Positions 52,477 to 61,044 of a DNA stretch of 64,000 nt are shown one piece after another. The stretch lies in NCBI GenBank assembly GCA_027579435.1, contig JANBPK010000863.1, positions 1 to 64,000 on the forward strand, in the 5' to 3' direction. Below the pieces are notes generated by a model. That model saw nothing but the letters and a program-made list of their open reading frames with translations. It was not told the origin of the DNA and searched no databases. The position numbers and the translations under genes were made by a program. This DNA is from Candolleomyces eurysporus (Eukaryota > Basidiomycota > Agaricomycetes > Agaricales > Psathyrellaceae). The first letter of the stretch is position 1. Each line of letters opens with the position of its first letter.

Positions 52477-53891
52477 TCAACCCAACAACCGCTCTCTCTC
52501 ACTGTTCGTGTCATCGGAATACATCCTTACGCTCAGTCTAGACCTCACCGATCCTACAACCCACTTGACACCGCCTCCGACGCCTTGCACGCCCTTTTTA
52601 ACAGCACCTGCGCCTGCGCCGATCAGCCTACCGGCCTTGTTACGAGAGGTGTCTTGGATACGGTCAGAGCGTATACGGTGTTCACGGTCGACGGAGACGA
52701 GGATGGAGGAGAAGGTGGTGAAGATGGAGGCGAGGGTGGTGCTGGCGGTGATCATGAACATGATGATCATTTGGAGTTTGGCGGCTTGGTGTACGGAAGA
52801 ACCGCCCAGGATGGCGCCGGTCATCATTCCTGGGATCGCGATGATTCCTAGGACGCTGGGTATTTTCGAAAGTAGGGTTGTAGTTAGCTTGGGAAGGGGT
52901 TTCAACGCTTAGGAAATGGAATGCGAAAACATGCTGGGTGATGCGGATGGTATATGGGGAAAAGGGTGGGGATAAGCAAATGACGGCTATGACGTACCTC
53001 ATGTTGTTGATGGGGTGGGTGAGGGCGAGGCGAAGAGCGTCGACAGCTATTGGGCGGCAGGCTTCCATGCGTGTCGCCCCAAATGCGAGGTAAATTTCGA
53101 TTTTATCTCGGTTTTCTCTGAATGTACAACGTCGTCAGAGCTGATGCAACCGGGTGGAGGATTGAGGAAAGAGTACGCACACCAGTTCTTTGAGAACGTA
53201 GCTCACTGAGACTACTACTGCGGATATAGTTGCTCCGCAGAGCATACCGACGATAGGAACTGTGAAAATGTGAACATGAGGCTTGCTTCTAGCTTCTGAG
53301 GGTAGAAAAACATACTATATTGGATTGGGGTCCAAAATGGTTCGACAGACATTGCGTAACGCGTTCCGATGATGGAAACTGGGATGGTAGAGCCTAGCAT
53401 TCCGATGAGGACGGCGGGGAACTAGACCGAAGTAAGACTATGAAGAGTGAAGGAAAATTGCTAATAGTACCATGTACTGGAAGCGACGTTTAGATTTGTT
53501 TATTACTGTTCAAATAGCATCAGTAAAATTTCTAGAGGAAAGGATGAAAAATGTGCATACCTGTTTCGAATGTACCAAGAAAATTGAGAACGACTAAGAG
53601 ACATGCGTAGGTTAGCATTTTCCGAGGAGATAAGGGGGATCNTTGAGACTTACAAGCTATCAGAGACACAATCCAAGGGTTCTTCGTTTCGAATACTTTT
53701 TGTAAAAGAGTGGCAACGACAGCCAGCTGGCCCGTACATCGTACTGTAGCGATGAAGAGGGAGGTGGACAGTCCCAGACGAAAGACGGAGGAGACCCCAA
53801 TGTCAAAGAGGATGAAGGACAATGCGATAGCGACATTGACCCATTGCAGTTCGGTATCGTTGGGTATCTGTGACAATATCCCATAGTCCAT
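52477..53891 (-). CDS. UPF0014 / FetB-like multi-pass membrane protein
   Basis: Start MDYGILSQIPNDTELQW at 53891. Hydrophobic segments follow: VNVAIALSFILFDIGVSSVF, GLSTSLFIATVRCTGQLAVV, the exon with VVLNFLGTFET, FPAVLIGMLGSTIPVSIIG, IVGMLCGATISAVVVSVSYV, and IIAIPGMMTGAILGG...MIIMFMITASTTLASIF. The GTRYAM and FGATRMEACRPIA motifs are typical of the UPF0014 family, whose bacterial member FetB (YbbM) pairs with an ABC ATPase in iron export. Fungal copies lack a fixed ATPase partner and their role is unknown. The C-terminal 70 residues are cytosolic and basic, ending SERERLLG. The N at 53642 falls in an intron. At least six exons; all joins keep frame. Confidence 0.85.
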
Positions 53892-54702
53892 GTTGGCTGA
53901 GACTACTCCCAAGGACACCTGGCGCTGTGAGGATAGGATAGTAGGATGGGTAGGCCCCGGTGGCGTAGAAAAGGAGTCCGAGACACTCGCAACGTCAGGG
54001 GGGGGATGGGTGGAGTGTGGAGCAATGACGGCGATAGGTTCTAGTTGGGCTCTAGTGTTTAAGAGATGCCAGATTTTGCTTTCACAGAACCATGGTCAAC
54101 GGTAGATGAAAGCAAGGAGGCTCAAGAACCCTGCCAGAACCGTGCGGAGCTCAATTGCATCCTCTTCTTTGTTTCCCACACCACCTTAGCCGACAGGAAT
54201 TAGAAAATGGACTGTCCTCATTGGACAGAGCCCGGCCTCGTGCGTATAGTCTGTTCATGTTTCAATTGATTTTCAAGAGGAAGCTTTAGAGAATGCCGGC
54301 AGATCGTGGTGGGCTGACGCAAAACGTGGCCCGACGAACAACAGGAGGTGCGCTTGTTCAAGCCTCGAGGTCTATTACGACCTGCGGAGAAAGGAAAGCT
54401 TGATCCGGGAGTCAAAAGCGCTGCTTGTTCGTGTGTGGCAAAGAGCTCGTGACACGTCAAATTAAATGCCGGTGAAGGCTGGTGACCACAGCCTGAGATA
54501 ACCCTCGATGCTCAATGTTTCCTACCACAACGTACCCGTACCCATGGATTTTTCCCGCCTGAAAAATCTCGTCCGCCATTTGACACTGCCTCGTTCCGGG
54601 CTTTGGGATGTACTTGTCTCAGTTCATACCCGTTACTGTAGAAGGAGGAGCACTGGCCTCGGCAGCACCTCATAATTCGGAATCGAGGGTACACGATCAG
54701 AA
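53892..54702. other. Intergenic between UPF0014 gene and DUF3328 gene
   Basis: No gene seen on either strand. It contains the UPF0014 promoter and the 3' flank of the DUF3328 gene. Confidence 0.5.
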
Positions 54703-55386
54703 CTACCACTGGCGCTCATGGTACATCTTTTCAGTTGCCTCCCGGATCCTAGTCCAATCTCTACACACGTGCACAACATCTGTCCCGGTGGCGCCCCTAT
54801 CGATCAACTTTCCTTCTTCATCCCGAATATCGACCACTGGCTCGAGGGATGTATCACCGCCGCATAATAGGGCCTGGCGCAGCATATTCATACAACGATG
54901 GACTTGTTTGTCTCTGCAAGTGTCCGCCTGCCACCCGGGGCTCGACCAGATCTTGCGCAGATTGTTCAAGCACCAGAGTTGGTTGTAGACGGAAGGCACG
55001 CTCTCAAGTGCCTTCTCTCGCAGTAGGGTGCGGTTGGTAATCGGGTCGATTGGATATCCCTGCGGGAACAAGGACTTCCAATCTGCCTCTGCGTCCGGAC
55101 GATAGTGTTTGTGCTGAATGGTTCGGTAACCGACTGGGTCGAGCTCAATCGGGAGTTCGCCGGGATATGGAATGCGACGGTCTAAATAGGGAGTAAGCAA
55201 ACTTCATTGGCGAACATCCTTGGGGGACGCCTCAGGATGGCCTATAAAATCAGCCTACGTACACCCAGAGGGCAGAGACTCTAGGATATTGAGGAAGTTG
55301 GAATCGAGGAACAGGAAGGCGACATTGATGGCCAAGCACACCCCGAGTACGAACGCAGTGGACGCCGATCTGAAAGAAGGGGACAT
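54703..55386 (-). CDS. UstYa-like oxidase-family protein (DUF3328), membrane anchored
   Basis: Exon 1 starts MSPSFRSASTAFVLGVCLA at 55386 and encodes one N-terminal membrane helix (FVLGVCLAINVAFLFL). An intron of roughly 80 nt joins SLPSG to YRRIPYPGELPIELDPVGY. The rest follows the DUF3328 plan: DAEADWKSLFP, the first signature SVYNQLWCLNNLRK, the second DKQVHRCMNMLRQALLC with GGDTSLEPV, and the C-terminal HVCRDWTRIREATEKMYHE. In ascomycetes UstYa-type proteins carry two HxxHC motifs and oxidatively cyclise ribosomal peptides such as ustiloxin. Here the motifs read NQLWC and QVHRC, so one or both first His are replaced. It sits on the same strand as, and 470 bases downstream of, two tandem secreted-peptide genes. 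Confidence 0.78.
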
Positions 55387-55859
55387 AATTTCAAGGATAC
55401 GGGGTACTGAGACTACGGCGAAGGAGGAGGAAGGTGAGAAAGAATCACATTTGCGCAGCCTACTTTTATATCAACGATTGATATACAACTTCCCCCATCT
55501 GTTTGATTGTTCAGAGATATCTATCAAGCGTTGAAGATGCCACACTTCTCCTCACCCGCTCTTCTCACACTGGACGGGAGAAGACAAGCGGCCTGTATAC
55601 AACCTTAGGCAAGTTTGGGTATCATTCCATCCATCTTACTACAAACTTGAAGCTCTGACGGCGGTACAAAGGAGCATTCATCAGGTAGAAATATTTGGGC
55701 AGGGCGTTTGGGTGGGATTCGAGAACGCATGGAATAGTGATGGCGAGCGCGTTGCCATCTCGAATCTTCACAAGTACCTGACAGAGATCATCACTAAACA
55801 TCTCATTCAAGGCCAGTCTAACTCTCGTACTTACCAAGTACGCTCAGCGTGGCGTCTTA
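55387..55859. other. DUF3328 promoter and peptide-1 3' flank
   Basis: No gene recognised. Near 55460-55480 the plus strand has TTTTATAT (minus ATATAAAA), a plausible TATA element about 85 bases before the DUF3328 ATG. Confidence 0.5.
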
Positions 55860-56151
55860 CTACTCGATGTTGGCCGAGTCCGGAGCCGGGTTCTTCCAGC
55901 GGAACGGTCGGTTTGCCCCTGATGCGAGCAAGAGTTAGAAGGGAGGTAGTTCTGTGGAATTGAAGCTCCTTACTAGCGTTGAGCTCTTCACATATCGGTG
56001 ATGGTCACAATGGTAAGCATGAAGAATCGTGCCCGTTTACAATCGGCTTTTGGCGCGTACCTGCATTTGGAGTCGCAGCGACACCTTGGAGGCATTGAGC
56101 GAGAACGAAAGCGAGAGTGATCGCGAGGGCAGTGGTGGATTTTCCAAACAT
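55860..56151 (-). CDS. Small secreted peptide precursor, copy 1
   Basis: Two exons, 56151-56061 and 55918-55860, with a 142-nt GT-AG intron. Exon 1 is 30 codons plus one base and encodes a signal peptide (MFGKSTTALAITLAFVLAQ, then CLQGVAATPNA). Exon 2 adds GANRPFRWKNPAPDSANIE and TAG. The total is 49 residues, with a predicted mature part of about 20. The core PFRWKNPAPDS recurs in copy 2 as PFRYSNPAPDS. Exon structure, phase (1) and total gene length (292 bp) are identical to copy 2. A TATA-like GTATATGAGG lies about 55 bases before the ATG. There is no dibasic Kex2 site, CaaX box or cysteine pair in the tail. Function unknown; possibly a ribosomal-peptide precursor for the adjacent DUF3328 protein, or a secreted signalling peptide. 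Confidence 0.72.
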
Positions 56152-56593
56152 CTTGCTAGTGGAAAGAGGAGGTTGGGATTGCCGTCGATGTGGGTAGAAT
56201 GACACCTCATATACCTTTCGCGCTGTCGTCTGACACACCCTTTGAAGCGCTTCTCTGCTTGAAGATTGATACGATAGACATGAGAAAGTCAAGGCCCACC
56301 TTCTGCGCGAGCTTTGATACCAGAGGAGTTAGCGGGGACCGGGACAAAAGATCTGAGATGATTGCAAGGATGCCCGGTGATCATTCTCACTACAGATTCT
56401 GATTGTACAAGAAATTCATCCAATAAATACAGATACAAGTCCCTTCTTTGTATTTACTAGGAAGTAGGGCCTAATACATATGGTGATGATCATAGACTCG
56501 AATGGACGACGTCTAGCCGCCAACCGTTCAGCTTTGGTCTATTCTCTTACTGAACAGAATATCGCAGCTCACCTGCTGTTCGAGTCGGTGTGT

Positions 56594-56885
56594 TTACGGA
56601 GTGGTGGTGGTGGGCTTGGGCGAGTCCGGCGCTGGGTTGCTATAGCGGAATGGGGCGGCCTCTGGAGAACGGTGCGTCAAAAAACCAACGGCGGTTCAGG
56701 AAGATGAGCATCGCTTACTCGCGCGCGCGTTCAACTCTTCGCAATTCAATGAGCTACAAGCTCCTGCCGGATATCATAAGGGTACAAAACTTACCGGGAG
56801 CGGCATTAACGGCTACTCCTTGGAAGCCTTGGATCAGAAGGAAGGCGAGAGTGATTGCCAAAGCACTGGAAGTCTTGTATAGCAT
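56594..56885 (-). CDS. Small secreted peptide precursor, copy 2
   Basis: Two exons, 56885-56795 and 56661-56594, with a 133-nt intron. Exon 1 (again 91 bases) encodes MLYKTSSALAITLAFLLIQ and GFQGVAVNAAP, a clear signal peptide. Exon 2 adds EAAPFRYSNPAPDSPKP, then four Thr and Pro before TAA, giving 52 residues. SALAITLAF and QGVA are shared with copy 1 in the signal region and PFRxxNPAPDS in the tail, while intron sequence is far more diverged. That pattern indicates selection on the peptide. It lies 443 bases upstream of copy 1 (734 bases ATG to ATG). Too small for normal gene finders. Confidence 0.72.
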
Positions 56886-57834: not shown

Positions 57835-59124
57835 ATGGCGTCCCGCCCAGAACTCCTGCCCGAATACGCCCCTCCAGGAGAGACGCCTGCCGATCTGTGG
57901 ATCGAGCGTTCCAACCTCGCGGGAATAGTCATTGCGGGTGTTGCATATGGTAAATAACCCTCGCCGCCTTTTGCTGCTGTCAACTCGATCCGCGGCTAAC
58001 CGATCGATTAGGGATCCTCTTTACCATTTTTGTGCAATGCATACTCTCATTGCGCACGAGCAACCCTCAAAAGAAGCGCCAAGCGAGATGGCTTGCAGCT
58101 TACTCTTGTGTTATCTTCATCTTGGCGACATGTGGATTTGCTGCGAACGTTAAATTCATTCAGATGACCTTCATTGATTACAGGAATTATCCTGGAGGTC
58201 CGAATGGGTTTACGTTCGACTTTTACACCGACCCCGTCAACATGTTCTCGCTTATGTGCTATGTGATTATGAATTGGTTTGCTGACGGCTTGATGGTTTG
58301 TTCTTCTCTTTCCGTCTTGATGGTTTCGTTTATGTGTTGACACGAGCCTTCTAGCTATACCGCTTTACCGTCTTTTACAACGGTAAATCATGGTTAATTC
58401 TAGTGTTCCCTTGCATGCTTTATCTCGCGATAATCGGTGAGTCGGATTGGCCTTATTTTTCAGCGACGTCTCACCCGACCCCAGGTTTGTCGCTTGCAAT
58501 GGCGATCTATACCATGAATCCTTCCATTGGTTTCTGGGCACCTATTACGATCGATATCGGCACTGCCTACTGGTCTCTATCCATCGGTATGAATGTCATA
58601 GTCACAGTCGCTATCGCTGGACGACTGCTAAAGATGCGAGCAAATATTCGGAAGATCCTGGGCCCTAAACACTCGTCTCCATACACCTCTGTACTTGCGA
58701 TGATTATTGAGTCGGCAGCCTTGTACACAAGTTGGGCACTTGTGTTCATGGTCGCGTACGCAAAGGGTGACACATTCCAAAACATTGTCTTGTCTTCCCT
58801 GGGGCAGGTGCAGGTATGCAGCATCGAATAATTCTTTCAAATTGTCGTTTGCTAACTTTGATCGCAACGGAACAGGGTATCGCGCCTCTTCTTATCATCT
58901 TCCGGGTCGCCCAAGGAAAAGCGTGGACGACTACAACAGGGACAAACTCGATGACTCTGCCAAGCGGAGGTTCTCGTCCTACACATCCAAGCAATATCAC
59001 AGGGTCAACGAACACCGGTGCAACTCGGTCGTTCCCTCTTACTAATGTCACCGATTCCACGGTGCACCTTGATATCAGGGTGGAGAAGTCGACTGTGAAT
59101 AGCCAGGATTCTAAGTGGGTTTGA
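57835..59124 (+). CDS. Seven-transmembrane protein of a basidiomycete-expanded family
   Basis: Start MASRPELLPEYAPPGETPADLW, then TM1 LAGIVIAGVAYGILFTIFVQC (joined across an intron), TM2 WLAAYSCVIFILATCGFAA, TM3 MFSLMCYVIMNWFADGLM, TM4 WLILVFPCMLYLAIIG, TM5 AYWSLSIGMNVIVTVAIAG, TM6 VLAMIIESAALYTSWALVFMV and TM7 from IAPLLIIFRVAQG. This order and the CYVIMNWFADGLMLYR segment match a large uncharacterised Agaricomycete seven-TM family with an outside N-terminus. The C-tail is Ser/Thr-rich, as in receptors. Five short introns fit GT-AG. Transcribed away from the secreted-peptide genes, so a receptor-ligand relation is conceivable but unsupported. Confidence 0.85.
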
Positions 59125-59656: not shown

Positions 59657-60958
59657 TTACGCTGTCTCCTGAGGACGAACGACAAGCTTGACTCCAGAGA
59701 CTCTGTTCTCCTCGAGCCGCTTCAACCCTTCGACTACCCCATTCAATCCCTTAGGCAACACCTCGATACGATTCGGCTAGGGTACACGTACAGATACGGA
59801 GTCAACTTCAGAAAGACAATAACCGCGCAAGAACCAACACACCTTGATATCGCCGCCTTGAAGGAATTTGGTGACATGAGTCCACATCTCTTGCACCAAT
59901 TCGGCGTATCCCTGCTTCGTCGCCAAGACATAAACGAGCGACTTGTTCTCTTTTGGGCCCTCTTCTTTTATTAGGTCGATCGCTGGTAGGTTGACGGCGA
60001 TCTGGCCACCCGGGGCCAAGAGGGTGAAGCCCAGCGTCTGAGTCTCCTCACTCGAGATCGCGTCAACGACAACTTTCACCGGCTTTTCAGTGATGCTTTG
60101 GATACTCTCTTTCAAGCCCGCGAGCGATGCATTGCGATCCAAGACATGAGTTGCGCCAAGGGACTTCAGAAAGTCTCCGTGCTTGATGGAGGCGGTTGTG
60201 ATAATCGGGTTGAAGCCAGAGAGCTTGGCGGTTTGGATGGCTAAAGGAGAGAAAAAGTCAGAAGTGTACCTCTTGATCGACAGCTGTTTGATTCACTGAG
60301 TTGTCCGACAGAGCTCGCTCCGCCGATTACGATAATTGGCGTGTCGCTATACTTTCCTCGCGCAGCGGCATTGGTGGGTGCGTCGAAACCTAGCCCATTT
60401 GGATTTTCATTGTAGAATCCGACCCAGGCAGTGGTGAGGGCAAGTGGAACCGACGCTGCTTCGTCGTACGAGATGCCAGATGGAATCTGCCCATTGATGG
60501 CATGTTCTAAATGAGCGCGTACAGGACAAGGAATTCAGATCATCCGCACCTTTGCCAGAGTCTTTACATCCGCGGTCGTATATTGCTGAAATCCGGCATG
60601 ACTATTGTCGTTGTACAAGCCTTGGAAGAGGCTGAAATTCCTCGTTCAACCAGCACTGATTCTGAAACAAGATGAGGACTCACACTCTGTCACCTATCGC
60701 AAAACCCGTAACCCCTTCGCCTAATTCCACGACTTCTCCAGCGATATCGGTGCCCAAAACAGTGGGAAAGTCAGTGAGGAAGTGGCTGAATCGAGTTACA
60801 ACCTTCCAATCAGCGGGATTCAAAGCGGCCGCATGAATCTTGACCAGGACTTCATCCTTGCCGGGCTTGTAGATCGGTGCGTTAGACACTATGAAATCTC
60901 CGGATGCCTTTGTGAGAAAGAGAGCTTTCTGCGTAGCGGTGGAAGTGGGGGTGGACAT
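59657..60958 (-). CDS. MDR-family oxidoreductase, copy D
   Basis: Begins MSTPTSTATQKALFLTK at 60958 and ends at TAA 59657-59659. The domain series equals copy C: GKDEVLVKIHAAALNPADWK, FLTDFPTVLGTDIAGEVVELG, IGDRV, GASSVGQL around 60300, SIKHGDFLKSLGATHVLDR, SSEETQTLGFTLLAPGGQIAVN and ENRVSGVKLVVRPQETA. Introns fall at the same sites and the frame is intact. It is nearly identical to copy C in the large C-terminal exon and lies in mirror orientation to it, 25 kb away. Promoter with TATA at 61039-61044 and the conserved dyad. Confidence 0.9.
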
Positions 60959-61038
60959 GATACAGGAGAGTAAGGCACACTTTGCTGAGGTGAACGACGG
61001 GTTGGTGTGGTATGGGGCTCCATCCCAAGTGGCAGCCC

Positions 61039-61044
61039 TTTATA
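61039..61044 (-). promoter_or_regulatory. TATA box of MDR copy D
   Basis: TATAAA on the minus strand 81-86 bases before the ATG at 60958, in the same sequence context as copies B and C. Confidence 0.6.

Follow-up and report, generated by a model that had tools for sequence, protein, structure and literature searches.

The first 64,000 nucleotides of a 116,743-bp contig of the Candolleomyces eurysporus assembly (JANBPK010000863.1, labelled C1151 below; assembly 65.85 Mb), which we call the window, contain two tandem genes for small peptides with signal-like N-termini, followed on the same strand by a gene for a variant of the UstYa/DUF3328 family and, on the other side, by a divergently oriented gene for a seven-transmembrane (7TM) receptor-like protein. 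The initial annotation proposed a locus resembling those for ribosomally synthesised and post-translationally modified peptides (RiPPs). Our analysis retains the linkage of secreted peptide and UstYa, weakens the chemistry and adds the divergent 7TM gene, which had been overlooked. Other loci in the assembly are given as contig label and kilobase (e.g. C1151:79.6k).

Peptide gene A (56594..56885, minus strand) and peptide gene B (55860..56151, minus strand) are as first described: each spans 292 bp with a 91-nt exon 1 (56795-56885 and 56061-56151), phase-1 introns, a hydrophobic N-terminus that is signal-like as judged from hydropathy only, and the shared motif PFR[YW]xNPAPDS. The phase was correct; the supposed single intron, by comparison with annotated relatives, is probably two introns flanking a phase-1 microexon of 18 nt in A (56719-56736) and 12 nt in B (55974-55985), ahead of exon 3 (56594-56661 and 55860-55918). 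In the best-scoring gene models, whose scoring rewarded an L-x-x-R site and which for gene B tied with one other, the microexons encode ELNAR. The sister gene at C1151:79.6k has ELSAR, and for C1151:89.7k two models tie, one of them with ELNAR. The microexon model gains independent support because all four annotated core-bearing Candolleomyces proteins carry L-x-x-R ahead of the core (P0006–P0009: LYSR, LSRR, LTAR and LFGR, P0007 being the product of C210:89.2k). The products read ...NAAP-ELNAR-AKAAPFRYSNPAPDSPKPTTTTP (A, 58 aa) and ...TPNA-ELNAR-ANRPFRWKNPAPDSANIE (B, 53 aa), and AKAAPFRYSNPAPDSPKPTTTTP and ANRPFRWKNPAPDSANIE are the predicted mature peptides prior to any further trimming. 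Precursors of the family combine a signal-like N-terminus with the L-x-x-R site (RR in one), followed in several by X-P or X-A dipeptides (EP in P0007–P0009). The window pair and the family gene models have a single core in each gene, with no Kex2-separated repeats, and the peptides end without CaaX.

A whole-genome search with a degenerate core pattern (≤2 mismatches) matched 18 places, against 6 for the reversed pattern used as control. Twelve of the 18 were kept as genes, the matches on C160, C333, C490, C628, C987 and C1146 being dropped for lack of a gene model or for a broken core, and a thirteenth, on C993, was added by a relaxed scan of retrieved loci. The resulting family (four genes each on C1151 and C210, two on C1008, and one each on C1212, C196 and C993; models at C210:90.4k, C210:91.5k and C196 are tentative) rules out a chance pair of open reading frames (ORFs). 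The residue following F-R is Tyr in 8 cores, Phe in 3 and Trp in 1; in the remaining core, that of the C993 gene, Leu occupies this aromatic position and Ile stands instead of Arg. A protein search with two-exon query models scored 7990 candidates and returned six proteins, two of which (P0010 and P0011) have no core; among the matches listed, core carriers outside this genome came only from C. aberdarensis and C. efflorescens. The core and tail EPAGFRYNNPTPDSIL are identical in C. efflorescens P0008 and C1151:89.7k, while the signal and pro-regions differ. Tandem core-peptide genes with neither UstYa nor a close 7TM neighbour lie at C1008:290.1k and 291.4k, where Thr/Ser-rich spacers precede the core, and at C210:89.2k-91.5k. 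A text search of a literature library for the core strings gave nothing relevant, its only match being an unrelated physics article, in line with the earlier statement that no described pathway is known for this peptide.

The neighbouring gene at 54703..55386 (minus strand, 200 aa) does encode a membrane-anchored DUF3328 protein, as annotated: it scores 51.7 bits with Pfam PF11807 (cut-off 25) and has two exons, the first (55263-55386) encoding a hydrophobic N-terminal anchor and the second spanning 54703-55181. Both of its HxxHC motifs are replaced, by NQLWC and QVHRC. The genome holds 16 UstYa places by Pfam (exons of one gene merged into one place), four of which form a close subclade (window, C1151:78.5k, C1151:88.5k and C993; 209–393 bits to the window copy, the next match scoring 47). 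Five relatives outside the genome, one from Ephemerocybe angulata, also belong to it. All nine subclade sequences have N[QE]LWC and [QK][VA]HRC at the HxxHC positions, with 0/4 histidines, whereas among seven comparison UstYa proteins of the same genome five have 4/4 and two have 2/4. In CctR the HxxHC pair holds two copper ions, and replacing its conserved His and Cys by Ala abolished activity (excerpts of PMC12435403). Because the histidines needed in CctR are gone, the variant subclade is, from its sequence, unlikely to perform the usual family chemistry on its own, and the oxidative cyclisation at Trp/Tyr put forward in the initial annotation is weakened. So is the choice of that aromatic residue as the target, the five peptides beside subclade genes having Tyr, Trp, Phe, Tyr and Leu there. 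A decaying pseudogene is ruled out by altered motifs common to all nine sequences and by dN 0.34 and dS 1.8 for the window copy against C1151:88.5k, the one usable pair, dS of the other two pairs being saturated or not computed. A structure model of the variant from a 6-sequence alignment had a pLDDT of 38.

The proposal of one core per gene beside UstYa, on the other hand, is strengthened by linkage. A core peptide lies within ~1.5 kb of 4/4 subclade UstYa genes and 0/12 other UstYa genes, for which the odds under random placement are 1 in 1820 if duplication is ignored. Elsewhere, a weak variant match with stops (C1210:292894-293157, 25.9 bits) is perhaps a relic copy. At the homologous loci C64:36039-38378 and C202:120797-123287 a UstYa pair surrounds a conserved ORF on the opposite strand, and in each pair one protein has only 2/4 HxxHC histidines; no core peptide was found at either locus, and ~2 kb past the C202 pair there is a distant 7TM match of 49 bits.

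The 7TM gene (57835..59124, plus strand; exons 57835-57949, 58012-58295, 58355-58436, 58485-58813 and 58876-59124) encodes 352 aa, and its ATG is 950 bp from that of peptide A, in divergent orientation. The annotated C. eurysporus protein P0015 is 100% identical to it over 77% of the query. When ORFs were compared across peptide loci, this gene was common to the window, C1151:80.6k, C1151:90.8k and C210:54.2k, each time divergent from the peptide gene; a genome-wide search added exactly one further close paralogue, on C1179, after which scores drop from 157 to 49 bits. The cassette paralogues are 55–73% identical. The predicted structure has a G-protein-coupled receptor (GPCR) fold, and its best match is Ste2 (7ad3). 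Sequence searches of Pfam and the PDB gave the protein no name, hhalign against one yeast Ste2 sequence returned a probability of 0.8%, and STE2 was absent at E ≤ 0.1 from the Pfam matches of the 74 members aligned (alignment A4) among the best 120 of 189 related proteins. A genome search with PF02116 gave no match, and neither did its controls. Far from being variable, the first extracellular loop ranks with the best-conserved segments, which is neutral on ligand choice, and the six cassette pairs available are too few for a pattern of co-variation between receptor and core.

Peptide, 7TM and UstYa variant occur together in three cassettes, all on C1151. Partial cassettes combine peptide and UstYa on C993 and peptide and 7TM on C210 and C1179, so that the peptide is the sole partner common to all three cassette types. 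On C1179 a peptide gene was predicted opposite the 7TM gene, and the retrieved stretch held MFNKTISALFLALVAFILQLYEG, 0.72 kb off and divergent, closely resembling the signal exon of C1151:79.6k, MLNKTSSALFLALIVFILQLYEG; no core follows downstream, and this peptide gene therefore looks truncated. A Pfam search of C210 and C1179 found no UstYa match on either contig, which also counts against the proposed oxidative cyclisation. In related species, peptide MD484_g3055 and 7TM MD484_g3060 of C. efflorescens appear to share a contig, as do a UstYa variant and a 7TM of E. angulata, while the annotated peptides and 7TMs of C. aberdarensis are on separate contigs. Titles and abstract openings listed in literature searches on DUF3328/UstYa with GPCRs or pheromone receptors, and on Ste2-like or GPCR repertoires in Agaricomycetes, did not describe such a cassette.

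Both sister cassettes on C1151 also contain a canonical UstYa gene with 4/4 histidines on the far side of the 7TM (C1151:82103-82531, locus L049, and C1151:93277-93576, locus L050). These combine HRLHC with HANHC or HENHC and are 63% identical to each other. Since they sit within both sister cassettes, a heterodimer of the variant with canonical UstYa is possible. ORFs that we take to be zinc-binding alcohol-dehydrogenase-like recur near two cassettes (window 59660-61039, minus strand; L049:754-2025, plus strand), which suggests segmental duplication. The window cassette is also adjoined by a membrane-protein ORF (53535-54095, minus strand), presumably a UPF0014/FetB-type permease.

We propose, with a probability of about 0.5, that the window holds one copy of a repeated signalling cassette of peptide ligand and 7TM receptor, with a UstYa-derived helper. 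The two small genes would produce secreted precursors cut after L-x-x-R, freeing a short peptide that carries, close to the C-terminus, the core F-R-[YFW]-x-N-P-[AT]-P-D, and the product of the divergent gene would be the GPCR-fold receptor of that peptide. The UstYa-related membrane protein, its own copper site lost, would be a maturation or chaperone partner that may handle the peptide in a non-oxidative way, or else form pairs with canonical UstYa proteins, for example those of the sister cassettes on the same contig. We infer the processing sites and the role of the variant from these sequences, and put the pairing of ligand and receptor at roughly even odds. The recurrence of the divergent 7TM makes a signalling role likelier than one in toxin or secondary metabolism, and the presence of the peptide in all partial cassettes agrees with its being produced, in some cases with help from the UstYa variant, and sensed by the 7TM. 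Two points bear on the weight of this proposal: for eight of the peptide genes no close 7TM gene lies nearby, so that they would work in trans or serve another purpose; and the linkage is strong, yet the cassettes on C1151 are not independent.

The same genes could instead make a UstYa-type RiPP, the peptide undergoing oxidative crosslinking or hydroxylation and leaving the cell as a bioactive metabolite, while the 7TM is a bystander, self-sensor or immunity protein. The tight 4/4 linkage speaks for such a pathway, 12 of the 13 cores have Y, W or F at the aromatic position, and the canonical UstYa genes in the two sister cassettes, with all four histidines, could supply the chemistry through heterodimers. 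However, the window UstYa has none of the ligand histidines, the nearest canonical gene found (C1151:82103) is ~27 kb from it, Leu occupies the supposed target position in the C993 core, UstYa is missing from the contig of the C210:52.8k cassette, and each gene has one core where Kex2-separated repeats would be looked for; we regard this explanation as unlikely. An intermediate model, in which the ligand is oxidised by the variant, acting by itself or together with a canonical UstYa, and the 7TM reads the modified form, accommodates the joint recurrence of all three genes in three cassettes and the action of UstYa proteins on membranes of the secretory pathway (excerpts of PMC12435403). We consider it distinctly unlikely, given the two 7TM loci without UstYa on their contigs. 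Finally, peptide, 7TM and UstYa genes that have nothing to do with one another may have been duplicated as one segment within the genus, without functional pairing, as could be argued from the location of three of the five cassettes on one contig, where the alcohol-dehydrogenase-like gene recurs too. The 7TM paralogues have nevertheless diverged to 55–73% identity while the divergent layout held on three contigs, and every partial cassette (C993, C210 and C1179) retained the peptide, which makes coincidence very improbable.

The proposed signalling cassette resembles several known systems without matching any. Like dikaritin loci (ustiloxin, asperipin-2a, phomopsin), it places a signal-peptide precursor gene beside a membrane-anchored UstYa-family gene, but its subclade lacks the HxxHC histidines and its precursors have one core rather than KR-separated repeats; dikaritins are recognised by a precursor gene that adjoins one for a DUF3328 enzyme bearing two HxxHC motifs (excerpts of PMC12048977), and the window neighbour has neither motif. 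Basidiomycete pheromones are encoded beside the receptor STE3 in several paralogous sub-loci (excerpts of PMC13308352), and the cassette shares this arrangement of ligand gene adjoining 7TM gene. Its 7TM is not STE3, however, and its peptides have no C-terminal CaaX; with STE3 matches only on C215, C63, C912, C1217, C372 and C1141, the mating B locus is ruled out. Orphan 7TM families with DUF6534 in Agaricomycotina have likewise been proposed as GPCRs (Liu et al. 2025, excerpts of PMC12842992), but PF20152 matches 72 places in the genome and 0/5 cassette 7TMs, which rules out membership; one of the 74 cassette-7TM relatives matches DUF6534 weakly (E 0.001). For Ustilago maydis, also a basidiomycete, the title of a preprint on Um.Gpe1 (Mendoza-Rojas et al. 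2025, cited in PMC13308352) announces a peptide-GPCR system unconnected with mating, and the likeness to the cassette is drawn from that title. The yeast-type alpha-factor/Ste2 system, with a class D GPCR, also uses a short secreted peptide from a signal-peptide precursor, and its receptor is the best structural match of the cassette 7TM; the latter lacks a Pfam STE2 match or Ste2 profile similarity, and the single core after L-x-x-R differs from repeated KR sites.

Class 1 (Ste2-type) receptors are reported as absent from Basidiomycota and confined to Ascomycota (excerpts of PMC12842992 and PMC13308352), while Marquer et al. 2019, as far as excerpted, speculated that Basidiomycota possess receptors for alpha-like peptides. 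We tentatively suggest, at less than even odds, that Psathyrellaceae have an alpha-factor/Ste2-type hormone system, with receptors that are Ste2-like by structure and unseen by sequence, organised as parallel peptide/7TM channels with a copper-less UstYa-derived maturation partner. On balance the cassette resembles a so far unrecognised system of peptide signalling more than it does a toxin pathway. For most fungal GPCRs no ligand is known (excerpts of PMC13308352 and PMC12842992), and a peptide gene beside a receptor-like 7TM gene, repeated in paralogous cassettes, offers concrete ligand-receptor pairs that are testable in yeast. A UstYa subclade that has lost its copper site and kept its gene partner bears on how this family works and on the other functions that it may have.
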